Below are positions 7,369 through 29,351 of a stretch of DNA of 64,000 nt, in pieces. The number at the start of each line of letters is the position of its first letter. The stretch's first letter is position 1. The notes under the pieces were generated by a model. It was not told the origin of the DNA and did not search any database. It saw only the letters and a list, made by a program, of their open reading frames with translations. The position numbers were made by a program, and so were the translations under genes. Origin of the DNA: Chloroflexota bacterium (GTDB lineage: Bacteria; Chloroflexota; Limnocylindria; Limnocylindrales; CSP1-4); the NCBI GenBank assembly GCA_030447745.1, contig JAUJOH010000004.1, positions 98,435 to 162,434 on the forward strand. Direction: 5' to 3'.

Positions 7369-8232
7369 GTGGCTCCGCTCCTGGCCGCCGGCGGCCGCCT
7401 GCTCGTGGTCACCGACTTCGACGGCACGTTGGCCCCGATCTCCATCGACCCGCTCGCCACGGTCATCGAGCCGCTCGGCCGGCGCGCGGTGCGGCGCCTG
7501 GCGCGGGTCGCCGACAGGCGCCCGGACCGGCTGGCGCTCGTCGTCCTGTCCGGCCGGCTCGCGGCCGACGTGGCGGGGCGGGTCCGTGTCGGGGGCGTGC
7601 GCTATCTCGGCAACCACGGCCTCGAGGGCGGGACCGTGCGGCGCGGCCGGCCGGCGGAGGCGATGGAGGTCGTCGTCGACGCCGCCCTCGGGCGCTGGCA
7701 GGCGCCCACGGCGGCGATCGCCGACGGCGTGCTGGCGGCCCTCGGCCGGCCGGGCTGGCTGTTCTTCGAACCCAAGGGGCCGACCGTCGCCTTCCACTTC
7801 CGCCAGGCGCCGGACCCGGACGCCGCGCGGGTCGCCGTCATCGAGGCGATCGAGGCGACGGAGCGCGCGCTCGGGGTGGAGGGTCTCGTCCAGGTCGAGG
7901 GTCGCCGCGTGGTCGAGCTGCGGCCGGCAACCGCGGGCGGCAAGGGCGTCGCGATGGAGCGGTTGATCCGGGACGAGCGACCACGCGCCGTGCTGACCCT
8001 CGGTGACGACGTCAGCGACGCCGAGGCGTTCGCGGTCGTCCGCGCAGCCCGCGAGCGCGGCGAGCTCGACGGTCTCGCCGTCGTCGTCCAGGGCGCCCGC
8101 GAGACCGGGCCTGCCGTGCGGGCCGCCGCGGACGTCGAGCTGGCGTCCCCCCGCGAGGCTGCCCGGCTCATGTCCGCGCTGGCCGGAGCGCTCGAGCGGG
8201 AGGACGCGGACCGTGGCGCCGTCAGGCGCTGA
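7369..8232 (+). CDS. otsB: Trehalose-phosphatase
   Basis: VVTDFDGTLAPI HAD motif, NHGLEG, LTLGDDVSDAEAF. Confidence 0.92.
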   Translation: MAPLLAAGGRLLVVTDFDGTLAPISIDPLATVIEPLGRRAVRRLARVADRRPDRLALVVLSGRLAADVAGRVRVGGVRYLGNHGLEGGTVRRGRPAEAMEVVVDAALGRWQAPTAAIADGVLAALGRPGWLFFEPKGPTVAFHFRQAPDPDAARVAVIEAIEATERALGVEGLVQVEGRRVVELRPATAGGKGVAMERLIRDERPRAVLTLGDDVSDAEAFAVVRAARERGELDGLAVVVQGARETGPAVRAAADVELASPREAARLMSALAGALEREDADRGAVRR

Positions 8233-10609: not shown

Positions 10610-12238
10610 CTAGACCGCCTCGCTCTCGACGCCGCGGACGGTGTCCCGCAGGCGGCGCGACGGCGGAACGAGGCCGCGCCGCACCGCCGCCACGTCGCGC
10701 AGCTGACGCGTCAGCCACCAGTCGAGGTCCTGCTGCCGGACGAGGGCGCGCAGTCGCCGGAGCCGGGCGCGGCGCTCCTCGGCCGGCATGGCAAGCCCGC
10801 GCTCCATCGCCGTCGCCGTCCCGACGACGTCGGCGGCAGCAATCGAGAGTGCGTCGGCGGCCAGCTGCTCGGCCGCGCCGGCGGTCTCCGACAGGACGAG
10901 GACTGGGTCCCGCTCACCGACGAGGATGGCCTCCTTGGCCACCAGGTTCATGCCGTCGACGAGCGGGTTCACGAGCACCACCTCGGCTAGCCGGAGCGCC
11001 GCGATTGCCATGGCGTAGTCGGACCCGTCGTAGATCCAGATCGGCTGCTCGTCCGGCTCCGCCATGCCGTTGATCCGGGCGACCACCTCGCGGACCGCCG
11101 ACCCGTACTCGGCATACTCGGCGATCTCCGTCCGCGTGGGCGCCTGGACGGCCAGGAACCGGACCTGGTGGCGGAGCTCCGGTCGGCGATCGAGGAGCGT
11201 CTCGAGGGCGAGAAAACCGCGGAGCGCGTTCTTCGAGGGCTCGATCCGGTCCGCGCGAACGATGAGCCGCGGTCGCCCGGCCCGGTCCAGTCGGTCGCTC
11301 AGCCGCTCCAGCCGCTGCTCGACGGCGTTCGAGGCCGCGAAGCGGAGGAGCCCGTCGGGGTCGACCGAGATGGGGTAGGCGCGCACGCGGATCCGCCGTC
11401 CGCGCCACGCGACGTTGCGGCCGTCGCGGTCGACCCGCGCATCGCGCACGAAGCTGGCCACGGTGTCGAGGAAGTGCGACGCGTAGCGGTCCGTCTGGAG
11501 GCCGACGATGTCGCACGCGAGCAGCCCCTCGCAGATCGGCCGGCGGAGCGACTGCGGGATGAGCCGCCACTGGCTCTCGGACGGCCACGGGATGTGGTTG
11601 AAATGGAGAATCGTCGCGTCCGGCAGGCGCTCGCGGATCCGTGCCGCCGCCAGGTACAGGTGGTAGTCCTGCAGCAGGAACACGGGGTTCGTGGTGTCTG
11701 CGGCCGCGTCGACGGCCGCGTCGGCGAGCTGGACGTTCGCCGGTCGGTAGCCCTTGCGCCACGCGTCGATCAGGGTGTCGTCGATCATGGGCGCGTACGC
11801 GTTGGCGTACATCTCGTGCTGGACGAACCACAGGAACGGGTTCGAGAAGCTCCGGTAGTGCCGGTCGTAGACCTCGTCGCTCAGGCTGACGTAGACGAGG
11901 CGCAGGTCCTGCCCCGGGAGCGTCTCCTCCAGCAGCTCGCGTACCCGCGCGTCGCCCGGACCGCTGCGCCCGTCGTTGAGCACCCGTGCCGCTGCCCGGT
12001 CGCCCTCGGTCAGGCTCGCCGCGACCCATGTCAGCGGCGCGTGCCGGCCGAGCTCCGCGAGCGCCGTGACGAGCCCGCCGGACCCGCGCGCGGCGGTCAG
12101 CCGGCCGTCGCCCGCATCAGCTCGGTCGAAGGTGATCGGTCCACGGTTGGAGACGACGACCAACCGGCCGGTGTCGCCGAGGAGCTCGCGCAGCAGCGCG
12201 CGGCGCGTGTCGTCTGGCACGGACACAGCATGCCCCAT
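10610..12238 (-). CDS. otsA: Trehalose-6-phosphate synthase
   Basis: LVVVSNRGPITF, FLLQDYHLYLAAARIRERLPDATILHFNHIPWP, RADRIEPSKNALRGF; 543 aa from ATG 12238. Confidence 0.93.
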   Translation of the reverse strand: MGHAVSVPDDTRRALLRELLGDTGRLVVVSNRGPITFDRADAGDGRLTAARGSGGLVTALAELGRHAPLTWVAASLTEGDRAAARVLNDGRSGPGDARVRELLEETLPGQDLRLVYVSLSDEVYDRHYRSFSNPFLWFVQHEMYANAYAPMIDDTLIDAWRKGYRPANVQLADAAVDAAADTTNPVFLLQDYHLYLAAARIRERLPDATILHFNHIPWPSESQWRLIPQSLRRPICEGLLACDIVGLQTDRYASHFLDTVASFVRDARVDRDGRNVAWRGRRIRVRAYPISVDPDGLLRFAASNAVEQRLERLSDRLDRAGRPRLIVRADRIEPSKNALRGFLALETLLDRRPELRHQVRFLAVQAPTRTEIAEYAEYGSAVREVVARINGMAEPDEQPIWIYDGSDYAMAIAALRLAEVVLVNPLVDGMNLVAKEAILVGERDPVLVLSETAGAAEQLAADALSIAAADVVGTATAMERGLAMPAEERRARLRRLRALVRQQDLDWWLTRQLRDVAAVRRGLVPPSRRLRDTVRGVESEAV

Positions 12239-12282
12239 CGAGGGGACCTCGGCACCAGCTGACCCAGCAGCGCCGTCGCGGA

Positions 12283-13749
12283 TCAGCCGATGGCGCGCGC
12301 GGCCCGGCCGACGACCTCGAGCAGGGGCCCGGGGATCAGCCCGAGGAGGATCGTCAGCGCCGTGGCCGCCGCGAGCCCGCCCCACAGGAGGCGACCGTGG
12401 GCGACGGCCGGTGCGTCCGTCTCCGAGTCGCGCATGAACATGTAGACGACCACGCGGAGGTAGTAGAAGGCGGCCGCGGCCGCATTGAGGACGGCGATGA
12501 CGGCGAGGATCGCGACGGCGCCGCCGGCCTGGACCGCGGCGAGGATCACGTACGCCTTGGCGAAGAAGCCGGCGGTCGGCGGGATGCCGGTCAGGGACAG
12601 CAGGAAGAGCGTCATGAGCACGCCGAGGAGGGGTTCGCGGCGCCCGAGTCCGGCGAAGGTGCCCAGGTTCGACGTCACGCCCGTCCGCTTCTGCAGCGCC
12701 GCGACGACGGCGAACGCACCGAGGTTCATGAACGAGTAGGCGGCGCCGTAGTAGAGCAGCCCCTCGAGGCCCTCCATCCGGCCGGCGGCCCACGCCGCGA
12801 GCCCGAGCAGCATGTACCCGGTGTGGGCGATGGAGCTGTAGGCCAGCATCCGCTTGACGTTGTTCTGGGTCAGGGCAACCAGGTTGCCGAGCGTCATGGT
12901 GACCGCCGCCAGGACGATCACCACCGGCAGCCAGTCGGCGCGCAGGCCGCCCATCGCCTCGACGAACAGCCGCAGGATCAGCGCGAACGCGCCGACCTTC
13001 GGCCCGACGGACAGGTAGCCGGTGATCGGCGTCGGCGAGCCCTGGTAGGCGTCCGGCGTCCAGTAGTGGAACGGCACGGCCGCGATCTTGAACGCGACGC
13101 CCGTGGTCATGAACGCGAGGCCCATCGCGAGGCCGGCGGAGAGCGTCCCCTGGCCCGCCGCGAAGGCGCCCAGCGCGCCGGCCACGTCGGCCACGCGGGT
13201 GGACCCGGTGAGGCCCCACACGAACGCGAGACCGAACAGGAAGATGGCGCTCGAGAACGAGCCGAGCAGGAAGTACTTGATCGCGCCCTCGGTCGAGTAG
13301 CCGTCCGACTTGTGGAAGGCCGCCAGCATGTAGCCGGGCAGCACCATCAGCTCGAGCCCGAGGAACAGGAGCAGCAGGTCCGTCGACGCGGCCAGCAGCA
13401 TCGCTCCGGTCATCGCGAAAATCAGGACGACAGCGAACTCCCCAACCGGCAGCGCCCGCGGCACGAGGTAGTCCGGCGCGAACGTGATCGTCAGCGCGAT
13501 GATCGCCACGAAGAGGACGTGCAGGAACGTCGTCAGCGCGTCGACGGTGTACGCGCCGCCGAACGCGACCCGCTCCTCGCCGCCGACCGCCACGGCGGCA
13601 AACGCCACCACCCCGAGCGCGACGAGCGCAGTCAGGACGACCGCCGTCCGTCGACCCGGCAGGGCGAGGTCGACCAGCAGGACGGCGATCGCGGCGAGCA
13701 CGGCCGCGACGAGCGGCAGCACGGCGACGAGGTCCGGCGGCAGCGTCAC
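12283..13749 (-). CDS. nuoN: NADH-quinone oxidoreductase subunit N
   Basis: Proton-pumping subunit pattern: FHYWTPDAYQGSPTPITGYLSVGPKVGAFA, LLSLTGIPPTAGFFAK. Confidence 0.93.
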   Translation of the reverse strand: MTLPPDLVAVLPLVAAVLAAIAVLLVDLALPGRRTAVVLTALVALGVVAFAAVAVGGEERVAFGGAYTVDALTTFLHVLFVAIIALTITFAPDYLVPRALPVGEFAVVLIFAMTGAMLLAASTDLLLLFLGLELMVLPGYMLAAFHKSDGYSTEGAIKYFLLGSFSSAIFLFGLAFVWGLTGSTRVADVAGALGAFAAGQGTLSAGLAMGLAFMTTGVAFKIAAVPFHYWTPDAYQGSPTPITGYLSVGPKVGAFALILRLFVEAMGGLRADWLPVVIVLAAVTMTLGNLVALTQNNVKRMLAYSSIAHTGYMLLGLAAWAAGRMEGLEGLLYYGAAYSFMNLGAFAVVAALQKRTGVTSNLGTFAGLGRREPLLGVLMTLFLLSLTGIPPTAGFFAKAYVILAAVQAGGAVAILAVIAVLNAAAAAFYYLRVVVYMFMRDSETDAPAVAHGRLLWGGLAAATALTILLGLIPGPLLEVVGRAARAIG

Positions 13750-13765
13750 GGGCGGTTCTCGCTCG

Positions 13766-15289
13766 TCATGGCCACAGCGCGAACCGGATCGGCCCGGCCT
13801 CGGCGACGCCACCGAGGACGGAACCAACCGAGCCGCCGATCAGCTCGAGGACGAGACCCGGGAACAGCCCGAGCGCGACGACCAGCGCGGCCAGCGGAGC
13901 GAGCGTCAGGATCTCGACCGGCCGCATGTCGGTCAGGTGATGCCCGAGGCCCCGCAGGAAGTCCGACACGTCGCCGGTCGCCACGCGCTGGAACATCCAG
14001 AGCAGGTAGCCGGCGGCAAGGATCATCACGAACGTTGCGACCGTCGCGACGAGCGGGCTGAAGTCGAAGGCCCCGACCAGCGTCAGGAACTCGCCCACGA
14101 AGCCGGACAGCCCGGGCAGCCCGACCGACGCGAACACGAAGAAGCCGAACACCGCGGCGTAGACCGGGGTGGCCCCCGCGAGCCCGCCCATCTTCGCGAT
14201 CGTCCGGTCGTGCGTCCGCTCGTAGATGACCCCGACGAGGAGGAAGAGGCCGCCGGTGATGATCCCGTGGTTGACCATCTGCAGGATCGCGCCCTGGAGT
14301 CCCTGCTCCGTGAAGACGAAGATCCCGAGCGTGACGAAGCCCATGTGGCTGACCGATGAGTAGGCCACCAGCTTCTTCAGGTCCGGCTGGACGAGGGCCA
14401 CGATGGCGCCGTAGATGATCCCGATCAGGCTGAGCACGATGATCGCCGGCGCGAACGTCTGCGCCGCGTCCGGGTAGAACGGCACGGCGTAGCGCATGAA
14501 GCCGTAGCCGCCCAGCTTGAGGAGGATCCCGGCCAGGATCACCGAGCCGGCCGTCGGCGCCTCGACGTGCGCGTCCGGCAGCCAGGTGTGGAACGGGAAC
14601 ATCGGGATCTTGATCGCGAAGGCGAGGAAGAAGGCCAGGAACGCGAAGATCTGGAGCGCCGGATCGAACGTCGTGTTGCTCAGTACCGTGAGGTCGAACG
14701 CACCTCGCCAGCTCCCGGTCTGGGCCTGATACGCGAAGGCCGTGGCCAGGATCGCGACCAGCATCAGCAGCGACCCGACGAGCGTGTAGAGGACGAACTT
14801 GATCGTGGCGTAGATCCGGTTCGCCCCACCCCAGATGCCGATGATCAGGTACATCGGCACGAGCACGATCTCGAAGAAGATGTAGAAGAGGAACGTGTCG
14901 AGCGCCAGGAACACGCCGACCATCCCGACCTCGAGGATCAGGAACGAGACCATGTACTCCTTGATCCGTTCCTGGATCGGCCGGAACGAGGCGAGGATCG
15001 AGATCCACATGAGCGTCGTGGTCAGGACGACGAGGATCAGCGACAGGCCGTCGACCCCGAGCTTGTACTGGATGCCGAACAGCGGGATCCAGTCGAGCGT
15101 CTCGACGAACTGGAAGTCCGGCCGCGGCACGTACCCGATCAGCAGGATCAGCGACACGACCCACGTCAGGAGGGCGGTCCCGAGGGCTACCGGGCGCGCC
15201 GCTCCGCGCGGCAGGGCGGCGACCAGGACGGCCCCGAGCAGCGGCAGGAAGGTCACGATGCTGAGGATCGGGATGCCGCTGACGTTCAT
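13766..15289 (-). CDS. nuoM: NADH-quinone oxidoreductase subunit M
   Basis: FPFHTWLPDAHVEAPTAGSVILAGILLKLGGYG. Confidence 0.95.
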   Translation of the reverse strand: MNVSGIPILSIVTFLPLLGAVLVAALPRGAARPVALGTALLTWVVSLILLIGYVPRPDFQFVETLDWIPLFGIQYKLGVDGLSLILVVLTTTLMWISILASFRPIQERIKEYMVSFLILEVGMVGVFLALDTFLFYIFFEIVLVPMYLIIGIWGGANRIYATIKFVLYTLVGSLLMLVAILATAFAYQAQTGSWRGAFDLTVLSNTTFDPALQIFAFLAFFLAFAIKIPMFPFHTWLPDAHVEAPTAGSVILAGILLKLGGYGFMRYAVPFYPDAAQTFAPAIIVLSLIGIIYGAIVALVQPDLKKLVAYSSVSHMGFVTLGIFVFTEQGLQGAILQMVNHGIITGGLFLLVGVIYERTHDRTIAKMGGLAGATPVYAAVFGFFVFASVGLPGLSGFVGEFLTLVGAFDFSPLVATVATFVMILAAGYLLWMFQRVATGDVSDFLRGLGHHLTDMRPVEILTLAPLAALVVALGLFPGLVLELIGGSVGSVLGGVAEAGPIRFALWP

Positions 15290-15293
15290 GCGT

Positions 15294-17351
15294 TCAGCGC
15301 CCCGAGATCAGCAGGTACGAGCCGGCCATCGCCAGCAGCCCGATCGCGATGCCGAGCGCGTAGTTCTGGACCCGGCCGGTCTGGACCCGTGACAGTCCGC
15401 CGCCCGAGCGCCGGGTCACGCTCCCGATCGCGTTGACGGTCCCGTCGACGATCTCGCGGTCGAACCACCACAGCGCCGCCGCGACCCGACCGCCGATCCG
15501 GATGAACAGCAGGTCGTTCAGCTCGTCGAACCACCACTTGTTGAGCGAGGCGCGGTACAGGAACGGCGCGCGGGCCGTGAGCGCGCGGACCTCCTCCGGC
15601 CGGCCACTCCGGCGGAGCGGCCCGATTTCCAGGCCGAACAGCCGCCAGGCGAGGACGGCGCCGATCGCCGCGACCGCGACGCTGGCGCCGATCAGCGCGC
15701 CGTCGATGCCGAACAGCTGGTACTCCGCCTCGGCGTGGTGGAGGAGCTCGGTCGCCTCGTGGAACACCGGCTCGAGCCAGTGGTGGAGCAGGCCCGGCTC
15801 CGTGCTCCCGAAGAGCGGGCCCAGCGGCGGCCCGGGCCACGACAGCGCGATGCCCAGCAGGACCGACGGCACGGCGAGGAGCCAGAGCGGGATCGTCATG
15901 ACCCTCGGCGACTCGTGGATCCGCGGCTCGACGTGCGGGTCGACCCGGCTGTCGCCCCAGAACGTGAGGCCCATGAGCCGGAACATGTAGAACGCGGTCA
16001 TGATCGCGACCACGAGGCCGATCGCCCAGACCCACGCGAAGCCGAGCTTGAACGCCTCGCCGAGGATCTCGTCCTTGCTGAAGAAGCCGGCCAGCGGTGG
16101 GATGCCGGAGATCGCGATCGTCCCGATCAGCATCGTCCGGTAGGTGCTCGGGATCTTTCGCGCGAGGCCGCCCATCCGGCGCATGTCCTGCTCCTCGTGG
16201 ACCGCGTGGATCACCGACCCCGAGCCGAGGAAGAGCAGGCCCTTGAAGAAGCCGTGCGTCATGAGGTGGAAGATCGCGGCCGTGAACGCGCCGCTGCCGA
16301 GGGCCGCGAACATGTACCCGAGCTGGCTCAGCGTCGAGTAGGCGAGGACACGCTTGATGTCCGTCTGGGTCATCGCGATCGAGGCCGCCAGGATGGCCGT
16401 GAAGATGCCGATCGCCGCCACGACCACGAGCGCCTCCGGCGCCGAGGCGAACAGCGGGTTGGCCCGCGCCACCAGGTAGACGCCGGCGTTGACCATCGTC
16501 GCCGCGTGGATCAGGGCGGAGACCGGTGTGGGGCCCTCCATCGCGTCCGGCAGCCAGACGTGGAGCGGGAACTGGGCACTCTTGCCCATCGCCCCGGCGA
16601 AGAGCAGCAGGGCCGTGATCGTCAGGGGGATGGCGTTCGCGTCGCCCTGCTCGACGAGCCGACCGAGCGACTCCCGGACGTCGAGCGTGCCGGTGTTGAC
16701 CCAGATGGCCATGATCCCGAGCGCGAACCCCACGTCGCCGACCCGGTTGACGATGAATGCCTTCTTGCTGGCGAGGGCCGCCGAGCGCTTGCGGTACCAG
16801 AACCCGATCAGGAGGTAGCTCGACAGGCCCACGAGCTCCCAGCCGGCGAAGATGACCAGCCAGTTGTCCGCCATCACGAGCAGGAGCATCGAGAACATGA
16901 ACAGGTTGAGATAGGCGAAGAACCGCCAGTAGCCCGGGTCGTGCGCCATGTACCCGATCGAGTAGATGTGCACGAGCATGCCGATCGTCGTGACCACGAT
17001 CAGCAGCACGGCCGTCAGGTTGTCGACGAGGAACGCCGCGTCGACCTGGAACCGCTCGCCGGCCGGGATCCACTCGTAGAGCAGGACCCGCGCGCCCTCC
17101 TCGCCGAACCCGCCGGTCAGCGCCTCGAAGCAGACGACCATCGCGATCGCCCACGTCACGACGACGATGCCGACCGGGATCCAGTGGGCCTGCCTGCCGA
17201 GCCGCCGCCCGATCGCCGCGCTGATCGCGAAACCGACCAACGGCAGCAGCACGATGAGCGGGATGAGGAGGTTGAAGATCGGGTCCACGGCGCCCGCTTC
17301 GGCGCCGCCCTCCTCGGCCGCGGCGAGGACGATCGGGAGCGTCAGGTTCAT
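15294..17351 (-). CDS. nuoL: NADH-quinone oxidoreductase subunit L
   Basis: FPLHVWLPDAMEGPTPVSALIHAATMVNAGVYL, GIPPLAGFFSKDEIL. Confidence 0.95.
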   Translation of the reverse strand: MNLTLPIVLAAAEEGGAEAGAVDPIFNLLIPLIVLLPLVGFAISAAIGRRLGRQAHWIPVGIVVVTWAIAMVVCFEALTGGFGEEGARVLLYEWIPAGERFQVDAAFLVDNLTAVLLIVVTTIGMLVHIYSIGYMAHDPGYWRFFAYLNLFMFSMLLLVMADNWLVIFAGWELVGLSSYLLIGFWYRKRSAALASKKAFIVNRVGDVGFALGIMAIWVNTGTLDVRESLGRLVEQGDANAIPLTITALLLFAGAMGKSAQFPLHVWLPDAMEGPTPVSALIHAATMVNAGVYLVARANPLFASAPEALVVVAAIGIFTAILAASIAMTQTDIKRVLAYSTLSQLGYMFAALGSGAFTAAIFHLMTHGFFKGLLFLGSGSVIHAVHEEQDMRRMGGLARKIPSTYRTMLIGTIAISGIPPLAGFFSKDEILGEAFKLGFAWVWAIGLVVAIMTAFYMFRLMGLTFWGDSRVDPHVEPRIHESPRVMTIPLWLLAVPSVLLGIALSWPGPPLGPLFGSTEPGLLHHWLEPVFHEATELLHHAEAEYQLFGIDGALIGASVAVAAIGAVLAWRLFGLEIGPLRRSGRPEEVRALTARAPFLYRASLNKWWFDELNDLLFIRIGGRVAAALWWFDREIVDGTVNAIGSVTRRSGGGLSRVQTGRVQNYALGIAIGLLAMAGSYLLISGR

Positions 17352-17364
17352 CGGACCAGGCGGC

Positions 17365-17676
17365 TCACCGGCGCATCGCGTCGTACTCGTCGACCAGCGG
17401 TGTCCGGCGGTTGCGGTAGATCGCGATGACAATCGCCAGCCCGACCGTCGCCTCCGCCGCGGCCACCGCCATGACCATCAGCGCGATGACCGAGCCATCG
17501 GCACGGAGCGGCTCGACGAACGAGCCGAACGCGATGATCGCGAGGTTGACGGCGTTGAGCATCAGCTCGATCGACATGAGCATGCTGATCGCGTTGCGTC
17601 GGGCGAGGAAGCCGAACGTGCCGATTGCGAAGAGGATCCCGGACAGGGTCAGGTAGACGTCGAGCGAGTCGCTCAC
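17365..17676 (-). CDS. nuoK: NADH-quinone oxidoreductase subunit K
   Basis: 103 aa; [25 protein letters not shown]. Confidence 0.94.
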
Positions 17677-18269
17677 GGCGGCCCACCTTCCTCCCGCTTC
17701 GCGACGTAGACGCCACCGATGACCGCTGCCAGCAGCAGCACGCTGACCACCTCGAACGCCAGCACGTAGTCGCGGAACAGCACCTGCGCCAGGGCATCCG
17801 TCGCCGTGTGGAGCCGCGTCCCCAGCTCGCCCCAGTCGGTCGCGGCCACCGTGATGACGACGATCAGGGCGAGGATGACCGACGCAACCGCGGCCCCGAG
17901 CGCCTGCGTCTGGAAGACGAGCGACGCCGGCGCATCCTTGGTCTGGGTCAGCATGATCGCGAACAGGATCAGCACGCTGATCGCGCCGATGTAGATCAGC
18001 ACCTGGGCCGCCGCGACGAGCGGCGCGCCGGCGATGACGTAGATCCCGGCCAGGGCGCCGAAGCAGACGATCATCGCCAGCCCGCAGCGGATGATGTCGC
18101 GCATCGTCACGACCAAGAGGCCGGAGAGCAGCATCACCTCGGCGAGGAGGAAGAAGAGCAGGTCCTCGTTGAAGCGGATCACGCCGAGGAACGCCAGACC
18201 GACCGGCAGGGAGACGAGCGCGCCCACGATGAGCAGCGGCGCGCCGATGTTCAGGAGGCTGCGCGGCAC
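17673..18269 (-). CDS. nuoJ: NADH-quinone oxidoreductase subunit J
   Basis: [22 protein letters not shown]; 4-bp overlap with nuoK. Confidence 0.92.
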
Positions 18270-18275
18270 CGCCGA

Positions 18276-20957
18276 CTACCCGTGGTGTGCGCCGGCGCCC
18301 GGGCCGATTCCGGTCAACGACCCGTTCGCGTCGCCGCCGCCGTGGCCGTGGCCGGCATGGCCACCGCTCCGGTTGCCGCCGTGGCCGCCTTGGCCGTTGC
18401 CGTTGGCTGCCAGCGAGGCCGGCAGCACCGGCAGCATCCGGTCCGACTCGACGACCCGGCCTTCGGCCCTCGCCCGCTCCAGCCAGTCGCGCTCCTTGCG
18501 GATGTAGGTGACCTCCGTCTCGCGATCGATCTGCGCGATCGCGAGCAGGTCGATCATCGGGTCCTCGCGACTCGAGTGCGCGAGCTCAACGTCCGCGCCG
18601 TCGCGCAGCGCGTCGTAGGGGCAGGCGTCGACGCAGATGCCGCACAGGATGCAGCGGCTCTCGTCGACGTCGTACTTCTGGAGGACACGCGGCTTGGGCA
18701 TCAGGGCGCCGGTCGGGCACGTCTCCGCGCACCGACCGCACGAGACGCAGGGCGTGTCGTTGAGGCTCATGTCGAGCGGCGTCGTGACGAGGGTGTCGAA
18801 CCCGATCCGCATGAAGTCATAGCACGCGGCGCCGACCACCTCGGCGCACACGTTGGCGCATCGGCCGCAGTCGATGCAGCGCGACGGCTCCCGCAGGATG
18901 AACGCGTGGGAGTCGTCCCGGATGTAGTCGTGGTTGAGGCCGGTGAAACGGTTCTCCGTCACGCTCCGGTAGCCCGCGCCGCTGTGGTGCTGCGGCTCGA
19001 GCGTCCTCAGCGTCGTCCCGTACTCGATCCCGAGCCGCCGGAGATCGCAGAAGCCGATCGCCTCGCACGTGCACTGGAGGCAGCGCGTCGACTCGGCCAT
19101 CGCCTCCTGCTGCGAGTACGGGATCTCGTACTCGACGTAGCTCCGGTTCCGGAGCTCCGGCTCCATCGCCGTCAGGCGGTAGCGCGGCTCCTTGGTCTCG
19201 CTCGTGAACGGCACGATCGAGAGGAACTCCGGCTGCGGCTCGGCCAGCGTCTGCCGGGTCTTGATCGCGTCGAGGTCCAGGCCCTTGAGATAGGCGTCGA
19301 CGGCGTAGGCGGCGCGACGCCCCTCGGCGACTGCCTGGACGACCGTGGCGGCGCCGATCCGCACGTCGCCCGTGCCGAAGACCCCGGGGCGGCCGGTCGC
19401 GAAGGTGACGGCGTCCGCCTTGAGCCGCTTCTGCTTCGTCGCCTCGACGCCCGTTGAGCCGGGACCGACCCACGACAGGTCCGGCCCCTGGCCGATCGCC
19501 AGCAGGACGCGGTCGCAGGGAATGACGAACTCCGTCCCGGGAGACGGCTCGGGGCGCCGTCGGCCGGAGGCGTCCGGCTCTCCGAGCTGCATGCGGATGA
19601 ACTCGACACCGGTCAGCCGGCCGGTCTTCTCGTCCGTGACGACACGGACCGGCCCGGCCTGGAAGATGGCGGTCGCCCCCTCCTCGATCGCCTCGTGGAC
19701 CTCGTTCGCGGCCGGCATGTCCTTCATGTCCCGACGGTAGACGAGGGTCACCTCCTTGGCGCCCTGCCGGACGGACGTCCGGGTGCAGTCCATGGAGGTG
19801 AAGCCACCGCCGATGACCACGACGCGGCTGCCGGCGTGCCCCTCGACCTCGAGTCCGAGCGTCGCCGTCCGCAGGTACTTGAGGCCGTCGAGCACCCCCG
19901 GCGCGTCCTCGCCCGGGATGCCCAGCTTGTTCGTGTCGTAGCAGCCGATCGCGACGAGGACCGCGTCGTAGCCCTGGTACTGCAGGTCGTCCAGCGTGAA
20001 GTCGCGACCGAGCGCCTGGTTCACGAGCACCTGACCGCCGAGCCGCGTCACCGCCTCGTACTCGGCGTCGAGCACCTCGACCTTGGGGAGCCGGTACTGC
20101 GGGATCCCGTAGCGCAGCATCCCGCCCGGCGCCGGGTCGCGCTCGAAGACGGTGACGTCGTGGCCGGCGATCAGGAGGTAGTAGGCGGCCGCCATGCCGG
20201 CCGGCCCGGAACCGATGACCGCGGCGCGGCGGCCGGTCTTCGGCTGGAGCTCGAACGGGACCGGCGGGTCGACGTCGTCGTCGAGCATCGCGCGGAGCAC
20301 CTGGTCGCCGGCGTAGCGGTGGGTGTCACGGATCGCGATCGCCTCATCGACCTCGTCGCGCCGGCAGTGCTCCTCGCACGGCGCCGGGCAGACGCGGCCG
20401 AGGACGGACGGGAACGGGATCGTCCGCTTGAAGATCCGGGCCGACTCCCGGAAATTGGCCTCGGCGTTGGCCTTCAGGAAGCCTGGGATGTCGATGTGGC
20501 TCGGGCACTTGTTCTGGCAGGGCGGCAGGCAGTAGGCGTTGTGGTCGCTGAAGATCAGCTCGAGGTTGGTCGCCCGGAGCCGGCGCACCTGCTCGGTCTG
20601 CGTCGCGACCTTCATGCCGGCGTCCGCGCGCTGCGTGCAGGAGATGGGGGGGTGCTCGGCACCCTCCACCTCGACGACGCACATGCGGCACGCGCCGAAC
20701 CCCGGCAGCTTGGGCTCGTAGCACAGGGTCGGGATCTCGATCCCGTTGTCGCGGCAGACCTCGAGGATCGTCTGGCCCTCGAAACCCTCGACGACGCGCC
20801 CGTCGACCTCGATCCGGATCGGCGGCGTGGACTGCGGTCGCTGCGGAGCCTGGGTGGTGATCAGGCGCTCCGCGAGCGTGTCCGCGCGCGCCTCGACCGT
20901 GTCGAGCGCGGCAGGGCGGTCGGGGCGGTTGTCCGGTCGGACGATCAGGTCGGTCAT
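18276..20957 (-). CDS. Composite NuoG-position subunit: 2Fe-2S domain + GltD-like FAD/NAD(P) module + multiple 4Fe-4S motifs
   Basis: 893 aa; [120 protein letters not shown]. Confidence 0.9.
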
Positions 20958-20971
20958 TGCGCCAGCGGGTC

Positions 20972-22318
20972 TCAGAGGGCGGCGCCGACCGCGATGGGGC
21001 GGCAGACGCCGGCGGGGCAGGAGCTGCGCAGCAGGTGGTCATCCAGCTCCGAGCGGAAGTATCGCATCCCGCTCGTGAGGGGGAGGGTGGCGAGCCGCTC
21101 GTGGTCGCACAGCGCGCTGTCGGTCATGTCGGCCGACAGGTCCGCGAGCAACTGCAGGTCCGTGGGACGCGGGCGGCCGTCCGTGATCCGGGCCGCGATC
21201 TCGACGAGCCGGCGCGTGCCGATGCGGCACGGGATGGTCTTTCCGCATGCCTCGGTGGAGCAGAAGGCGGTGAGCAGCCGGGCCAGGTCGACGATGCAAG
21301 CCCGGTCGTCCGCGGCGATCACCGACCCTGAGCCGATGTGCGCGCCCACCGCGCGAAGCGCGTCGAAGTCGTACGGCGTATCGAGGAGCTCCGGCGGCAC
21401 CAGACCGCCGGACGGGCCGCCGATCACGACGGCCTTCAGCGAGTGGCGCCGAGGCGGCTGCCCACCGAGCGCGATCACCTCGCGGAGCGGTGTCCCGAGC
21501 GGGACCTCCGCCACGCCGGCCCGTTCCGGCCCGCGGACCTGGACGAGGATCGTCCCTGTCGCGCGCGCGCTGCCGATCCCGGCCCACGCCGGCGCACCGT
21601 TGACGACGATCCACGGCACGGCCGCAAGCGTCTGAACGTTCTGGACGACCGTCGGCATGCCGAACAGGCCGCGCTCCGCGGGGTAGGGCGGTCGCTGCTC
21701 CGGCTGGCCGCGCCGCCCCTCGAGAGCCTTGAGGAGAACCGTCTCCTCGCCCAGCATGTAGGCGCCCTGGACCGGGCGGACCAGGACGTTGACGTCGTGA
21801 CCGGAGCCGAGCACGTCCTCGCCCAGGAAGCCCGCCTCCTCGGCGGCGGCCACGACACCTTCCAGCCGGCGGACCGCCTCGACGTCGCCGGCCCGGACGG
21901 CGACGATCGCATCCGTCGCACCGACGGCGATGGCGGCGATCGCCAGTCCCTCCACCACGCCGAACGGATCAGCCTCGATCAACGCCCGATCGGTCAGCGA
22001 GCCCGGATCGGCCCCGTAGCCGTGCGCGACGACGTATCGTGGGGCGCCGTGGGCCGCCGCGGCCCGCCACTTGGCGGCCGTCGGGTAGCCGGCGCCACCG
22101 CGGCCACGCAGCCCGGCCGTCGCAACCGTCGCGATCGTGCCCGCCGGGCCGAGATCACGGACGGCGCGCCGGAGTCCCTCGAACGCGCCTGCGGCGACCG
22201 CCGCATCGAGCGCGGCAGACGGATCGTCGAAGCCCATCGCCGGGTGGTCCTTGAGGGCCGCGGCGCGCGCGAGCAGGACGCTCGGCCATTCGGCCGGCGT
22301 CCGGATGATCGTGGTCAT
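20972..22318 (-). CDS. nuoF: NuoF-like subunit with degenerate cofactor motifs
   Basis: GLRGRGGAGYPTAAKW, GAYMLGEETVLLKALEG, GMPTVVQNVQTL, STEACGKTIPCR; ATG at 22318. Confidence 0.85.
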   Translation of the reverse strand: MTTIIRTPAEWPSVLLARAAALKDHPAMGFDDPSAALDAAVAAGAFEGLRRAVRDLGPAGTIATVATAGLRGRGGAGYPTAAKWRAAAAHGAPRYVVAHGYGADPGSLTDRALIEADPFGVVEGLAIAAIAVGATDAIVAVRAGDVEAVRRLEGVVAAAEEAGFLGEDVLGSGHDVNVLVRPVQGAYMLGEETVLLKALEGRRGQPEQRPPYPAERGLFGMPTVVQNVQTLAAVPWIVVNGAPAWAGIGSARATGTILVQVRGPERAGVAEVPLGTPLREVIALGGQPPRRHSLKAVVIGGPSGGLVPPELLDTPYDFDALRAVGAHIGSGSVIAADDRACIVDLARLLTAFCSTEACGKTIPCRIGTRRLVEIAARITDGRPRPTDLQLLADLSADMTDSALCDHERLATLPLTSGMRYFRSELDDHLLRSSCPAGVCRPIAVGAAL

Positions 22319-22322
22319 CCGA

Positions 22323-22997
22323 TCAGTGAACCGCCCCGGCTGCGGCCCCCCGGCCGTCGAGTGCCGCACCCAGGCTCGCGAGGTAGACGGATTCGTCCGG
22401 TCGGGCGGAGGCGGCGACCCGTGCCTGCCCGGCGTCGCGCGGCGGATCGAGCCGGAGGTGGCCGTAGTAGGACGCCGTGCCGTAGATGAGCGCGTAGTAG
22501 GCGCCGCTCCGGAAGCTGATCTGCTTGAGCGCGGCCACGGGCAGGTAGCCGTACACGGCCTGGACCGCCTCGAGGATCGACAGCATCCGCTTCGGGTCGT
22601 AGTCGTGGTCGTCGAGGATCGCCTCGACCGGCGACATGTCGAGCTGCTCGAAGTGCTCGTACGCGCGATCCGGAACCGTGCGACCGGAGCGCCGCAGCGC
22701 CGACTCCTCGCGGCGCTCCGCGTACTGCTCCGGCGGACCCCAGTGGACGTGATAGCGGCCCTTCGTGTCGATGCCGCCCATGTCGATGCACTCGATCGGG
22801 CAGGCCTGTGCGCACTGGAAGCACGTCTCGCACTTGAGCGCGCCCCACTCGTCGTAGAGGAGCTGCAGACGGCCACGGAACTTGGGCGAAACGTCCGCCC
22901 GGACCTCCGGGTAGCGGATCGTCGCCTTCGGCTCGAAGAAGCGGCGGAGCGTCAGGGCCATGCCCTTGGCCAGCCCGAGCCCCGGGATGAAGCTCAC
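22323..22997 (-). CDS. NuoI-like ferredoxin fused to truncated NuoE-like domain
   Basis: CETCFQCAQACPIECIDM (one 4Fe-4S motif) followed by MLSILEAVQAVYGYLPVAALKQIS (NuoE helical domain); no NuoE 2Fe-2S cysteines. Confidence 0.82.
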   Translation of the reverse strand: MSFIPGLGLAKGMALTLRRFFEPKATIRYPEVRADVSPKFRGRLQLLYDEWGALKCETCFQCAQACPIECIDMGGIDTKGRYHVHWGPPEQYAERREESALRRSGRTVPDRAYEHFEQLDMSPVEAILDDHDYDPKRMLSILEAVQAVYGYLPVAALKQISFRSGAYYALIYGTASYYGHLRLDPPRDAGQARVAASARPDESVYLASLGAALDGRGAAAGAVH

Positions 22998-22998
22998 G

Positions 22999-24342
22999 TC
23001 AGGCGCCCAGCTCGCGGACGAGGACGACCGCGCCCGCGGTGACGAACAGGTTGAGCAGGGACGCGGGCAGCAGCCACTTCCAGGCGAACCCCATCAGCTG
23101 GTCGATCCGGACCCGCGGCAGGGTTCCGCGCATCCACACGAAGATGAAGACGAAGGTGTACGTCTTGAGCATAAACCAGAGCAGTCCGGCGACCCACTCG
23201 AGGCTCACGAAGGCCCACCCGAGCACGGCCGCAACGGCCACGATGTTGAACAGGACGAACCCGATGACGAGCGCCTGCCAGAAGGGCATCGAGCTGCGCA
23301 GCAGGTAGAACGGCATGGCCAGGATCAGCGTCCCGACCACCGGCACGACGGCGACCAGGATCAGCAGCGCGATCCCGAGGGACCCTGGGTCGAACGCCAG
23401 GGCGATCTCCGGGAACGGGAAGGGCGCGTTCCAGCCACCGAAGAAGAGCGTCACGGTCAGCGCCGAGACGATGAAGACGTTCACGTACTCGGCGAAGAAG
23501 AAGAACCCGAAGCGCATCCCGGAGTACTCGGTCGCGAACCCGGCGACGATCTCGGAGTCCGCCTCGGTCAGGTCGAACGGCGTCCGGTTGGCCTCCGCGG
23601 TGGCGGCGATGAAGAAGATCAGGAAGCCGAGCGGCTGCTGCCAGATGTACCAGTCCGTGAACCAGCCGGCCTGGTTCAGTACGAGCTGGTTGAGACTCAT
23701 CGTGCCGGCCAGGATCAGCAGCCCCACGACCGAGAGCACGAGCGGCACCTCGTAGCTGATCACCTGGGCCGCGGACCGCAGGCCGCCCAGCAGCGAGTAC
23801 TTGTTGAAGCTCGACCAGCCGCCCATCAGCAGGCCCACCACGCCGAGCCCGGAGATCGCGAAGAAGTAGAGCAGCGCGATGTTCATGTCCTGGCCGAACA
23901 GCCCCGGGGCGAACGGGATCACGAGCAGCGTCATCACGCTGGCCAAGTAGGTCACCACCGGCGCGAGCGTGAAGACGGGGGCGTCCGCGCCGGTTGGCGT
24001 GAAGTCCTCCTTCATCAGCACCTTGAGCCCGTGCACGACGGACAGGAGCGAGCCGAAGGGCCCCACGCGATCTGGTCCGAGGCGCAGGTTCATCAGCGCG
24101 ATGATCTTCATCTCCATGTAGATGATCAGGAATGCCGTCGGGATGGTCATCAGCAGGACGACCGTGGCCGCGCCGACGAACCGGACGAGCGGGAGGTTCG
24201 CGCCGAGGAGCTCGAGGATCGGCTCGCTGAAGATGATCAGCGCGATCAGCGCGCCGGTCAGCAGGCCGCCCAGCAGGAACAGGCCGAGCAGCACCCGCCC
24301 CGGAATGGTGAGCCGGTTCCACGTCCGCGCGACGAACGTCAC
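22999..24342 (-). CDS. nuoH: NADH-quinone oxidoreductase subunit H
   Basis: MKIIALMNLRLGPDRVGPFG, RTPFDLTEADSEIVAGFATEYSGMRF; GTG start at 24342. Confidence 0.95.
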   Translation of the reverse strand: MTFVARTWNRLTIPGRVLLGLFLLGGLLTGALIALIIFSEPILELLGANLPLVRFVGAATVVLLMTIPTAFLIIYMEMKIIALMNLRLGPDRVGPFGSLLSVVHGLKVLMKEDFTPTGADAPVFTLAPVVTYLASVMTLLVIPFAPGLFGQDMNIALLYFFAISGLGVVGLLMGGWSSFNKYSLLGGLRSAAQVISYEVPLVLSVVGLLILAGTMSLNQLVLNQAGWFTDWYIWQQPLGFLIFFIAATAEANRTPFDLTEADSEIVAGFATEYSGMRFGFFFFAEYVNVFIVSALTVTLFFGGWNAPFPFPEIALAFDPGSLGIALLILVAVVPVVGTLILAMPFYLLRSSMPFWQALVIGFVLFNIVAVAAVLGWAFVSLEWVAGLLWFMLKTYTFVFIFVWMRGTLPRVRIDQLMGFAWKWLLPASLLNLFVTAGAVVLVRELGA

Positions 24343-24487
24343 GATGCGCCTCCGCGCGCTGCCTGACGGGCGCCCTCGGGCGTTCCCAGGCCAAGGCGGC
24401 GCCGAGGACGCGAGCGAGCGCACCCAAGTGTGCGTGAGCGAGCGCCCGCAGGCGCCAACGCAGGCATGGGACGAGCCGAGGCGCCCG

Positions 24488-25708
24488 TCACTTGTCGACG
24501 CCGCCCATGACGGGGTCGAGCGACGCCATCACCGCCATCGTGTCGGCGATCAGCTGCCCCTGCACGAGCTGTCCGACGGACTGGAGGTGGATGAAGGACG
24601 GGTCGTGGATCCGGAGGCGGAACGGCTGGTCCGTACCGTCGCTGATCGCGTACGCGGCGTACTGGCCGCGGGGCGACTCGACCGCCGCGTACGCGCGGCC
24701 CGGCCGCGGCCGGATGAGCCGCGGCAGCTTGGCCATGATCGGTCCGTCCGGCATCCGGTGGAGGCACTGGTCGATGATCCGCAGGCTCTGCTTGATCTCG
24801 TCGAGCCGGAGCAGGTAACGGGCCAGGCAGTCGCCCTCGATTCGGGTCGGGATGTCGAAGTCGAGCTCCTGGTAGACCGAGAACGGGTGCGCCCGGCGGA
24901 TGTCGAACGGCAGGCCGGTCGCCCGGAGGTTCGGGCCGGTCCAGCACATCTGCAGGGCCGTCTGGCCGTCGATCGTGCCGAGGCCGCGCATCCGGCGGAC
25001 GAAGATCTCGTTCGTGTTGAGCAGCGTGAGGTTCGCCTCGATCTGGTCGGTCGCCCGGGTCATCCAGTCGCCGAGGCGGCTCATGAAGTCGTGGTTCAGG
25101 TCGCCGTTGACGCCGCCGATCCGGAAGTAGTTGAACAGCATCCGCTGGCCCGTGAGGGCGCCAAGCATCTCCACGATCTCGTCGCGCTCGATGAACGACC
25201 ACAGGATCGGCGTCAGGCCGCCCAGGTCGAGCGCCATCCAGCCCATGAACAGGGCATGGCTGGCGATCCGGTTCAACTCGGCCGAGAGTACCCGGATGTA
25301 CTCGGCCCGGCGCGGCACCTCGACGTCGAGCAGCTTCTCGTAGGCCATCACCGGGGCCCACTCGTTGAAGAGCGCGCTGATGTACTCGAGCGGGTCGACC
25401 TGGCTGATCGTGTGGTGGTAGTCCGCGTTCTCGCACAGCTTCTCGACGCCGCGGTGGAGGTAGCCGACGACCGGGTCGAGGTCGACGACCTGCTCGCCTT
25501 CGAGCTTCAGGACCAGCCGGAGCACGCCGTGGGTCGACGGGTGCTGCGGGCCCATGTTGATGAACATCTGGCCGTCACCCAGGGTGTAGAACTCGGCCTC
25601 GCGCTCCGTCCGCGGCGGGTACGGCGGGACGGGCTCGAAGATGCCGAGCTCCTGGTCGAGCGTGATGCGCGGGTCGTCGGCGGAGGGGCGGCTGGAGGTG
25701 GCGGTCAT
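24488..25708 (-). CDS. nuoD: NADH-quinone oxidoreductase subunit D
   Basis: MGPQHPSTHGVLRLVLKLEGE, HRGVEKLCE, LDVEVPRRAEYIRVL. Confidence 0.95.
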   Translation of the reverse strand: MTATSSRPSADDPRITLDQELGIFEPVPPYPPRTEREAEFYTLGDGQMFINMGPQHPSTHGVLRLVLKLEGEQVVDLDPVVGYLHRGVEKLCENADYHHTISQVDPLEYISALFNEWAPVMAYEKLLDVEVPRRAEYIRVLSAELNRIASHALFMGWMALDLGGLTPILWSFIERDEIVEMLGALTGQRMLFNYFRIGGVNGDLNHDFMSRLGDWMTRATDQIEANLTLLNTNEIFVRRMRGLGTIDGQTALQMCWTGPNLRATGLPFDIRRAHPFSVYQELDFDIPTRIEGDCLARYLLRLDEIKQSLRIIDQCLHRMPDGPIMAKLPRLIRPRPGRAYAAVESPRGQYAAYAISDGTDQPFRLRIHDPSFIHLQSVGQLVQGQLIADTMAVMASLDPVMGGVDK

Positions 25709-25721
25709 CGGGGCGCGGGCC

Positions 25722-26270
25722 TCAGGCGCGGATCCGGCGGATGCTGGTCGCCGGTGGGGCGCTGCGCGGCACGTGGACCTGCTCCATGTGCCGGATGCCG
25801 GCGCCCGGTGAGCGAGCGGCGTCGTCGGGCAGGTAGAAGTCCTTGCGCAGCGGGAAGCTCGTGTACTCCGGCGGCATGTAGATCCGGCGCAGGTCCCGGT
25901 TGCCCTCGAACGTGATGCCGAACATGTCGTAGGCCTCGCGCTCCTGCCACTCGGCGCCCTGCCACAGGAACGTGACGGAGGGCACGCGAGGGTCGTCGCG
26001 CGACAGGCCGTCGGCGATGACGCGCAGCCAGTCCGGCGTGACGTCCGACCAGAGGTGGTAGACGACCTGCATCACGGTCCCCGTGTCCACGCCGGCCAGA
26101 TCGGCCAGGAAGGTGAACCGGAACTCCGGATCGTCGTGGAGGGTCCGGAGCACGTCCGTGACGCCCGCCGCGCCGATCCGGATCTCGGTCTCGTCGTGGC
26201 GCTGGCGGACCGGGCCGGTCAGCTTCGGTCCCAGGCGCGCCTCGAGGCGACGACGGAACACGCGGTCCAT
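25722..26270 (-). CDS. nuoC: NADH-quinone oxidoreductase subunit C
   Basis: WQEREAYDMFGITFEGNRDLRRIYMPPEYTSFPLRKDF. Confidence 0.94.
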   Translation of the reverse strand: MDRVFRRRLEARLGPKLTGPVRQRHDETEIRIGAAGVTDVLRTLHDDPEFRFTFLADLAGVDTGTVMQVVYHLWSDVTPDWLRVIADGLSRDDPRVPSVTFLWQGAEWQEREAYDMFGITFEGNRDLRRIYMPPEYTSFPLRKDFYLPDDAARSPGAGIRHMEQVHVPRSAPPATSIRRIRA

Positions 26271-26273
26271 CGG

Positions 26274-26975
26274 TCAGACGCCCTCGGGAACGGTGGGTCC
26301 GACGGCTCGCTCGTTCCAGTGGCCGCGGCGGTCCTTGATCAACTGCTGGAGCTTCATCATCCCGTAGATCAGCCCCTCCGGCCGCGGCGGGCAGCCCGGG
26401 ACGTAGACGTCGACCGGCATGATCCGGTCGATGCCCTCCACCGTCGAGTAGCTCCGCTTGTAGCGTCCGCCGGACGTCGTGCAGTCGCCCATCGCGACGC
26501 ACCACTTCGGCTCCGGCATCTGCTCCCAGAGCCGCAGGAGCGGGGCGGCCATCTTGGTCGTCAGCGTGCCCGCCACGATCAGCACGTCCGCCTGCCGTGG
26601 GCTGGCCCGGAACGGGAACATGCCCCAGCGGTCCATGTCGTTCTTCGATGTTGCGGCCGACATCATCTCGATCGCGCAGCACGCCAGGCCCGAGAGGAGC
26701 GGCCAGAGGCTGTTCGCCCGGATCAGGTCCAGCACGTAGTCCGCCTTGGTCGGGATCAGCTCGAGCGGACCCGTCCACCGCGCGTCGTCACGCTGTCCAC
26801 CGCCGGCAACCTCGAACTCGCGAAGGTGGGTGATGTCGGTCGGGCGCCCGCCGCCGTAGGCCATCGGGTCCGTCGACGTCCAGAGGGTGTTCGGGACGAC
26901 GATCGGCTCGGCCACGTCGGACGACTCGTGCGTGACGAGGATCGACGGCCGGTTGCTCGGCTGATCGGCGGGCAT
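26274..26975 (-). CDS. nuoB: NADH-quinone oxidoreductase subunit B
   Basis: [59 protein letters not shown] (N2 ligands intact); ATG at 26975. Confidence 0.95.
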
Positions 26976-27022: not shown

Positions 27023-27379
27023 CTAGCGCCAATTGAGCACACCCTTTCGCCAGGCGTACGCGAGCCCGAGGAGCAGGACCGCGACGAAGATCAACATGCT
27101 GACGAAGCCACCGAGCAGGAGGTCCTGGAAGGCGATCGCCCACAGGTAGATGAAGATCACCTCGATGTCGAAGGCGACGAACAGCAGCGCGTAGATGTAG
27201 AACGACAGGCCGAACCGCCCGTGGGTGTCGCCGTAGGTGTCGATCCCCGACTCGTACGGGAGCCCCTTGTGCTGGTCGCCGCGGGTGCGGTGCGAGATCA
27301 GCCAGGCGGCCCCGATCGTCAGGAACACGAACGAGACGCCGGCGAAGGCGAACCCGACGACGTACCACAGAGGGGTCAA
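27023..27379 (-). CDS. nuoA: NADH-quinone oxidoreductase subunit A
   Basis: [47 protein letters not shown] start at 27379 inferred. Confidence 0.9.
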
Positions 27380-27493
27380 GCGACCTCCGCGCGGCGCGCC
27401 GCTCCGCGCGGCGCGTTCCGTTGCCCAAGGGCCCGGATGGTGGGGGGACATGGGGCGCGCCGCACGCGATCGCCCGTGCCGCGGACCGACAAC

Positions 27494-28124: not shown

Positions 28125-29351
28125 TCAGCGGCCGCTCGTGGCGGAGGCCGATCGACGGTCGGCGAGGTCCCAGGCGAAGCCGCGGAGCGGCGGATCCGCC
28201 GGCAGGTCGCGCCCGAACGCCATGACGCGGAAGCGCCCCGTGGCAGCCGGGTCGAGCAGCCGCATCACCGCCGACCGGAGGGCGAGGTAGCGCTCCATCG
28301 TCGCCGTCGAGTCGGACTGGACCTCCCGGACCAGCTCGTCGATGCCCAGGCCGGCGAGGAATTCGGCCTGGGTGGTGACCCCGATGCGCGCCAGGCCGGC
28401 GGCGTCCGCCGCCCGCTCGACCGCGGTGACGTCGACGTGGGCCGTGAGGTCCTGCCGGCCAACGTTGACGAAGGGGTCGTCGTGCACCCGGTGGTTCACG
28501 TAGGCCGCGAGCGTGCCCGCCCGGCGTCGCGGCCCGTACAGCTCGGCCGCCGGGTGGCCATAGTCGATCAGCAGCACGAGCCCGCGCGCGAGCCCCGCCG
28601 CGACCTCCGCCATCCACGCGTCGAGCCCGAGCGCGATCTCGGCGACCTGCGCCTCGCGGAGCTCGATGCCCTCCGCGCGCAGCCGCGCCTCGAGCGCCGG
28701 GGTCGTCGGCGGGGCCAGCACCTCGGTGAAGCGATCGTCGACCCAGTCGACGAGGCGCTCGTGCAGCCGGCCGTCGCGCCACTCGACGCGGTGGACCGGC
28801 AGCGCGTCCAGGACCTCGTTGGCGAGGACCGTGCCCGTGATCGTCCCGGCCGTGACGGCCCGATGCCGACCGGCGTGCCCGCCGGCGTCGAGGCGGTCGC
28901 CGAACGCCGCGATGCGCGCGCGCTCGACCTCGACGGGCTCCCACGTGATCGCATCGCGGAGCGGCGAGCCGTCCGCGGCTAGACCGTCGAGCACGCTCAG
29001 CGCGAGCGCGCCCTCGCCGGCCCCGTGCTCCCGCACGACGAACGGGTCCGGCCGGTCCAATCGCTCCCAGACCTCGTGCAGCTGGCGGCTGAGCGCGCGG
29101 CCGAAGACCGGGTGCATCTCGGGCGCCGTCAGGAAGTCCGCGCCGGCCCGCCCGGGCCCTGGCCGACGCCTCCGGTAGTACCCGAGGCCCGGCTCGAGGA
29201 GGGCGCGCTCCATGTAGCGGGCGAAGGTGATCGGGCCGGTCGCCTCGATCTCGCGCCGGATCCGCTCGACGAGCTCCGGCTCGCTGCCGACGTCGAGGCG
29301 GCGCGGCGGCTCGCGGTGGAGCGCGGCTCCCAGCCCGTCGGGCCGTGTCAC
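28125..29351 (-). CDS. SAM-dependent methyltransferase, MidA/NDUFAF7-like (COG1565 type)
   Basis: GPITFARYMERALLEPGLGYY, DFLTAPEMHPVFGRALSRQL, GTVLANEVLDALPVHRVEW, LLIDYGH. Confidence 0.88.
   Translation of the reverse strand: MTRPDGLGAALHREPPRRLDVGSEPELVERIRREIEATGPITFARYMERALLEPGLGYYRRRRPGPGRAGADFLTAPEMHPVFGRALSRQLHEVWERLDRPDPFVVREHGAGEGALALSVLDGLAADGSPLRDAITWEPVEVERARIAAFGDRLDAGGHAGRHRAVTAGTITGTVLANEVLDALPVHRVEWRDGRLHERLVDWVDDRFTEVLAPPTTPALEARLRAEGIELREAQVAEIALGLDAWMAEVAAGLARGLVLLIDYGHPAAELYGPRRRAGTLAAYVNHRVHDDPFVNVGRQDLTAHVDVTAVERAADAAGLARIGVTTQAEFLAGLGIDELVREVQSDSTATMERYLALRSAVMRLLDPAATGRFRVMAFGRDLPADPPLRGFAWDLADRRSASATSGR

Follow-up and report, generated by a model that had tools for sequence, protein, structure and literature searches.

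A predicted NADPH-oxidising complex I of Limnocylindria with a StnC-like protein in the NuoG position and NuoI divided between two polypeptides

The input of the 14-subunit complex I is usually held to be defined by oxidation of NADH at the FMN of NuoF. An exchange of this input has been predicted for the Nuo-Bfu complexes of Geobacter and other bacteria, where BfuABC stand in for NuoEFG, and the resulting complex, in which BfuB carries four defining domains, is predicted to confurcate electrons from NADH and ferredoxin (PMC9304861). In the transhydrogenase Stn, electrons from NADPH pass from the FAD of StnC along a chain of clusters to a NuoF-like subunit (PMC10482914), and recombinant StnC has been found to bind FAD and to oxidise NADPH (PMC7483475). 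StnC itself ends in an FdhF-like tail, which is only partial in the archaeal Nfn/Nso relatives (PMC10482914). Nuo-Bfu is the nearest published idea to the complex considered here (PMC9304861); we met no description of an NADPH-type complex I with a split NuoI in the literature searched, subscription papers and preprints being outside its scope.

We analysed a stretch of 64,000 nucleotides (the window) from a member of the Limnocylindrales, in which a complete nuo operon lies on the minus strand in the order nuoA-B-C-D-H-(I/E)-F-G-J-K-L-M-N and is syntenic in relatives (Table 1). The quinone module (B, C and D, with the ligands of cluster N2) and the membrane arm (A, H and J-N) are thus all encoded in a single operon. 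The gene in the G position codes for a protein of different type, which we refer to as the NuoG substitute. We propose that the product of the operon is a proton-pumping complex I with a substituted NADH module, electrons passing from NADPH through FAD, iron-sulphur clusters, a two-chain NuoI and N2 to quinone, a reading that the sequences favour with a probability of about two-thirds.

Table 1. Positions of the nuo genes and of the parts of the NuoG substitute in the window
Feature	Position	Strand	Basis or remark
nuoA	27023..27451	-	PF00507
nuoB, N2 ligands present (CC, C, C)	26274..26975	-	Pfam and sequence reading
nuoC	25722..26270	-	PF00329
nuoD, distinct clade, 25-aa deletion	24488..25708	-	Pfam, tree, alignment
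nuoH	22999..24423	-	PF00146
Fusion of nuoI (first half) with nuoE (N-terminal part); 224 aa, a single CxxCxxCxxxCP motif	22323..22997	-	TIGR01971 1-64; PF01257 2-63 of 145
nuoF, eroded	20972..22318	-	NADExEP to HGYGADP; N3 CGKCxPC to CGKTIPC
NuoG substitute, StnC/NfnA-like, 893 aa	18276..20957	-	2Fe-2S, GltD FAD/NADP(H) module, [4Fe-4S] motifs, NuoI second half
Fer2_4 [2Fe-2S] domain, residues 46-121, N1b-like	20595..20822	-	PF13510, 74.8 bits
Fer4_20 (GltD-type) cluster domain, residues 143-220	20298..20531	-	Pfam; conservation in homologues
GltD-type FAD/NAD(P)H domain, residues 243-560	19278..20231	-	PF07992; fold and sequence relatives
CxxCxCxxxxxC cluster motif, residues 626-637, as in StnC	19047..19082	-	PMC7483475; homologue conservation
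StnC/formate-dehydrogenase/NuoG-type motif pair M1 (C694-C704), M2 (C737-C747)	18714..18878	-	Pfam and homologue conservation
NuoI second half, residues 757-801 (M3 and NuoI-like tail)	18555..18689	-	TIGR01971 71-115; TYKY/NuoI profile match; whole-genome scan
nuoJ	17673..18269	-	PF00499
nuoK	17365..17676	-	PF00420
nuoL	15294..17432	-	PF00361/PF00662
nuoM	13766..15289	-	PF00361
nuoN	12283..13827	-	PF00361

NuoD from loci of this type is set apart from canonical NuoD in a tree, and it lacks a 25-residue segment (canonical ...MEALIHHFKLYTEG...) that canonical paralogues of NuoD in related genomes possess. NuoH, at 474 residues, has an insertion of approximately 70-75 residues ahead of its last segment, most of which is missing from two loci of the same class (L049 and L050). 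A scan for promoters and terminators gave nothing above chance. Upstream of nuoA, and likewise on the minus strand, is a PF02636 methyltransferase gene (28125-29351), presumably MidA/NDUFAF7-like; the mitochondrial member of the MidA/NDUFAF7 family modifies the NuoD homologue. Directly downstream of nuoN is a glycosyltransferase family 20 gene (10610-12259, trehalose-6-phosphate synthase-like), and the open reading frame at 7369-8232 is, by reading only, a likely trehalose-phosphatase.

The initial annotation had described the protein in the nuoG slot as a fusion of a 2Fe-2S domain, a GltD-like flavoprotein and a ferredoxin that replaces NuoG and has no molybdopterin-type domain. The open reading frame does read in this way and contains all of the motifs that had been quoted. 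Pfam places Fer2_4 at residues 46-121, Fer4_20 at 143-220, Pyr_redox_2 at 245-546 and Fer4 motifs at 694, 737 and 769, and there was no Pfam match to a molybdopterin family anywhere in the 893 residues. The NCBIfam NuoG model TIGR01973 scored 90 bits where the cut-off is 470, aligning with the N-terminus and one further stretch only; the NuoG combination of a [2Fe-2S] cluster, clusters N4/N5 and a molybdopterin-like domain is therefore not found at the locus, and no canonical NuoG exceeded the cut-off in 61 related genomes. Among 117 homologues of the substitute, C79, C90 and C93 were present in 114 (the other three having gaps) and C107 in 116, while C143, C147, C151, C190, C194 and C198 of the Fer4_20 domain were invariant, as was H139 just before them. 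Overall, the residues of cluster-ligand type and of the Rossmann and FAD/NADP(H) motifs that we checked were conserved in 114-117 of the 117, the sole varying position being S388, which was always S, A or T. The protein closes with a Gly/His-rich C-terminal tail of approximately 45 residues (18276-18410, minus strand).

Over residues 47-779 the closest solved relatives by sequence are 9bov_A and 9n5u_A (NfnABC) and 8oh5_C (StnABC), and the same three chains again came out best when folds were compared. The core common to StnC and the Nfn-BfuA proteins, namely an N-terminal [2Fe-2S] domain, GltD-type FAD and NADP(H) motifs and a C-terminal pair of Fe-S motifs, is present throughout. StnC Lys170, a ligand of the FAD-proximal cluster (PMC10482914), aligns with H213, which is His in 117/117 homologues, and we infer that H213 may take over as cluster ligand. 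The FdhF-like C-terminal domain with clusters C1/C2 is absent, as the alignment with StnC/NfnA stops near residue 780 and the tail that follows is NuoI-like. Judged by sequence, the NuoG substitute is a homologue of StnC/NfnA, the NADPH-oxidising subunit of the Stn/NfnABC transhydrogenases, minus the FdhF-like tail. By analogy with these relatives, NADPH is probably the electron donor.

In the dicluster ferredoxin fold, each cluster draws three of its Cys ligands from one of the two motifs and the fourth from its partner motif. NuoI ordinarily has both CxxCxxCxxxCP motifs on a single chain; at this locus the nuoI gene encodes one, and the second half lies elsewhere. On the NuoI model TIGR01971 (121 positions), the I/E fusion covers positions 1-64, and residues 757-801 of the NuoG substitute cover positions 71-115. 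Profile comparison gave the same division, with the C-terminus of the substitute matching the whole of the second half of NuoI/TYKY (for example 5lc5_I 104-157, E 2e-21) and the I/E fusion matching the first half (7ar7_I 23-87). Motif 3 and the tail after it are the sole NuoI-derived part of the substitute, and precisely the half that is absent from the nuoI gene. The initial annotation had seen here a NuoI-like double 4Fe-4S pair; the third motif is indeed NuoI-derived, but its supposed partner CVSCGRC is of StnC type and is not half of such a pair, since its partner, judged by homology, is the upstream CIDCGRC, the arrangement seen in StnC and formate dehydrogenase.

Paired TIGR01971 matches (1-65 and 71-116) recurred among the relatives in a scan of 61 genomes, and none of these genomes had an intact NuoI above the family cut-off. 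One motif in the I/E protein and three in the NuoG substitute were counted in all 98 readable loci of this type (some genomes contributing twice), the exceptions to the pattern being one canonical operon, one Stn-like locus and two loci that could not be read throughout. The canonical operon, L168, belongs to one of these Chloroflexota genomes and has an ordinary two-motif NuoI. We considered a frameshift or assembly error in nuoI and dismissed it, because the identical gene pair recurs in 98/98 readable loci; a NuoI hidden in the extra sequence between G and J of L049 was likewise rejected, the open reading frames there being unrelated. When modelled alone with AlphaFold, the I/E protein had well-folded NuoE helices, and residues 36-115, the NuoI half, were disordered (pLDDT <50), which fits a NuoI that is split. 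In the model of the NuoG substitute the GltD part was confident, and as the C-terminal Fe-S region (649-821) fell below 50, it speaks neither for nor against ligation in trans. Given that the clusters of this fold draw Cys from both motifs, N6a and N6b are probably each ligated across the two chains.

The initial annotation had also proposed that electrons enter through the GltD flavin and not through canonical NuoEF. Entry through the flavin stands as the best-supported route, the closest relatives being NADPH-oxidising enzymes, but nuoE and nuoF are present immediately upstream, in degenerate form. NuoE lacks its [2Fe-2S] thioredoxin-like domain in the window, where the N-terminal region only is left, and degenerate remnants are seen in several relatives. 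In NuoF the FMN-binding NADExEPG is replaced by HGYGADPG and the N3 motif (CxxCxxC..C) by CGKTIPC. The Asp of the FMN site (D94-equivalent) is gone in all readable homologues (about 102), and one of the four N3 Cys is lost in 85 of 91 sequences from within the class, although it is present in 12/12 from outside it. This erosion contrasts with the near-invariant ligand and FAD/NADP residues of the NuoG substitute. NuoF does retain the GRGG motif, the Glu pair and most N92-equivalents, so that weak binding of FMN or NADH may persist, yet its sequence makes it fairly likely that NuoF is inactive with NADH.

These retained features bear on a reading with two ports, in which NADH would still be oxidised at NuoF-FMN and the GltD site would be a second entry, giving a pumping transhydrogenase or a bifurcating or confurcating enzyme like Nuo-Bfu or Stn. 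Apart from the residues kept in NuoF and the retention of nuoE and nuoF in the operon, it draws on the precedents of Stn, which combines exactly such subunits (PMC10482914), and of Nuo-Bfu, predicted to be a complex I in which the input module bifurcates (PMC9304861). However, besides the loss of the FMN-site Asp throughout and of an N3 Cys in most Limnocylindria, the NuoE [2Fe-2S] domain needed for bifurcation in Stn is absent from the window. Pfam counterparts of two of the BfuB domains (IPR011538, IPR019554, IPR019575 and IPR017896) were found in NuoF (Complex1_51K and NADH_4Fe-4S); the SLBB and 4Fe-4S domains of BfuB were not detected, nor was either an N-terminal thioredoxin-like domain or the C-terminal ferredoxin domain that defines BfuB. 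As the bifurcating domains of NuoF and the [2Fe-2S] domain of NuoE are missing, a bifurcating function of Bfu/Stn type is disfavoured, and we regard two ports as unlikely.

The survey of this architecture in nuo operons that the initial annotation had suggested found the NuoG substitute in 58/61 relatives, some of the matches being weaker and GltD-only (0 to a few genomes affected), and in 71/301 sampled Chloroflexota at a strict cut-off. Identity was 74-94% within the order and about 50-59% over the class, and it follows from its retention in 58/61 relatives and from the near-invariance of its cluster and Rossmann residues that the open reading frame is not there by chance. The relatives are Limnocylindrales, including Ca. 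Limnocylindrus and Ca. Aquidulcis, and the best 80 matches in a scan of genome contigs were mostly named as Chloroflexi or its subgroups. Three relatives of 90-91% completeness (G004, G007 and G022) lacked both NuoF and a full NuoG substitute, a point against the proposed reading that may reflect a loss in the lineage or gaps in the assemblies.

The initial annotation had named a separate canonical nuoE-F-G set as a possible server of this complex; no such set was found in the window genome, where the one NuoF is that of the nuo operon (assembly 77% complete). Some relatives have extra NuoF-type genes, none accompanied by a NuoG over the cut-off, and these we infer to be parts of formate dehydrogenase or hydrogenase and not of complex I. 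Each of the five class genomes checked (the window genome and four others) had a single NuoD and a single NuoB. With no NuoG over the cut-off, we conclude that this type of complex I is class-wide in Limnocylindria and usually the only one. Several other Chloroflexota families have it beside a canonical complex I, its genes lying in two clusters, B-I/E-F-G and A-C-D-H. This two-locus arrangement was seen at L069, L167 (G122), L073 and L081, with J-N not nearby, and a second, solitary copy of the NuoG substitute occurs in some other Chloroflexota genomes. A further locus, L077, in a genome of 0.9 Mb (G188), is Stn-like and likely an outgroup; its StnC-type protein has 1210 residues, a long C-terminal tail included, and its NuoE-type partner is intact.

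In the mechanism that we favour, NADPH would be oxidised at the GltD-type FAD of the NuoG substitute, which would sit in the NuoG position, and electrons would pass through its own [4Fe-4S] and [2Fe-2S] clusters, of GltD and NuoG type, to the two-chain NuoI, composed of the first half on the NuoI-NuoE fusion and the second on the C-terminus of the substitute. From there they would reach N2 in NuoB and then quinone, with the intact membrane arm (A, H, J-N) pumping protons. The exit toward NuoI would be the counterpart of the dead-end cluster branch of StnC (PMC10482914), and NuoE and NuoF would be structural relics that no longer feed in NADH. NADPH would be supplied from NADH by the Pnt transhydrogenase; PntB occurs in 38/38 class genomes as against 72/263 others in the phylum sample, but this co-occurrence is weak as support because it is a single clade-level association, and Pnt is mostly missing from the Chloroflexota outside the class that have the NADPH-type complex.

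The anatomy does not fix the direction of flow, and since GltD-type/StnC modules are reversible (PMC10482914) the complex could instead run backwards, with quinol or the proton-motive force driving reduction of NADP+ in an NADPH-producing reverse electron transport. Against this, Pnt is universal in the class and already uses the proton-motive force to make NADPH from NADH, and the class genomes checked have no complex I besides the NADPH-type one, so that forward respiration would be left with no other pumping entry for NAD(P)H. We therefore think reverse operation improbable and flow toward quinone probable. Highly improbable is that the substitute acts as a soluble enzyme, of NAD(P)H or glutamate-synthase type, beside an 11-subunit complex fed by ferredoxin: it has a GltD-family domain and 11-subunit complexes are common (PMC11238625), but its position between nuoF and nuoJ is constant in same-order loci reaching that far, it travels with nuoB and I/E/F in other Chloroflexota, and it carries the missing NuoI half, without which NuoI could not bind both clusters as usual. 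Taken as a whole, a class-wide NADPH:quinone oxidoreductase of Limnocylindria, with the NADH site abandoned and N6a/N6b of a split NuoI each ligated by two polypeptides including the flavin-bearing input subunit, has somewhat better than even odds.

On this proposal, a natural lineage found from soil and groundwater to freshwater would have swapped its input for an NADPH-type flavoprotein and kept the pump, while NuoE and NuoF decayed. It would offer a direct test case for the modularity of complex I and for the sharing of a cluster-bearing ferredoxin fold between chains, and it bears on how a lineage might respire on its NADPH pool and not on NADH. Annotations of 'NADH dehydrogenase (nuoA-N)' in the abundant uncultured Limnocylindria may accordingly misstate the substrate.

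The window operon has in common with the canonical 14-subunit Nuo the gene order, nuoA-D, H and J-N, an intact N2 and the quinone-module and pump subunits; it differs in that NuoG is replaced, NuoI split, NuoE truncated and fused, NuoF eroded and NuoD of a separate clade. The 11-subunit complex I, Fpo (F420H2) and the photosynthetic NDH-1 (ferredoxin) likewise receive electrons in their core from a donor that is not NADH, as proposed here, but their input proteins are unlike those of the window, and NuoI is a single chain in all three. StnABC of Sporomusa ovata (8oh5) and NfnABC (9bov, 9n5u) have the same order of NuoG-like [2Fe-2S] domain, GltD FAD/NADP(H) module and Fe-S motifs as the NuoG substitute, with HxxxCxxxCxxxCP and CxxCxC motifs in both, and StnC pairs with NuoE/NuoF-like subunits much as the substitute has neighbours derived from nuoE and nuoF. 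They are, however, soluble bifurcating enzymes, whereas the gene for the substitute belongs to a complex I operon; the FdhF-like tail of StnC stands where the substitute has the NuoI half, and the NuoF-like subunit of Stn has the bifurcating domains that NuoF of this locus lacks. Nuo-Bfu resembles the window in that the N-module has been swapped for one of the Hyd/Stn family (PMC9304861), but two of the four BfuB domains are undetected in NuoF of the window, where the GltD module would provide the flavin site and the donor would be a different one.
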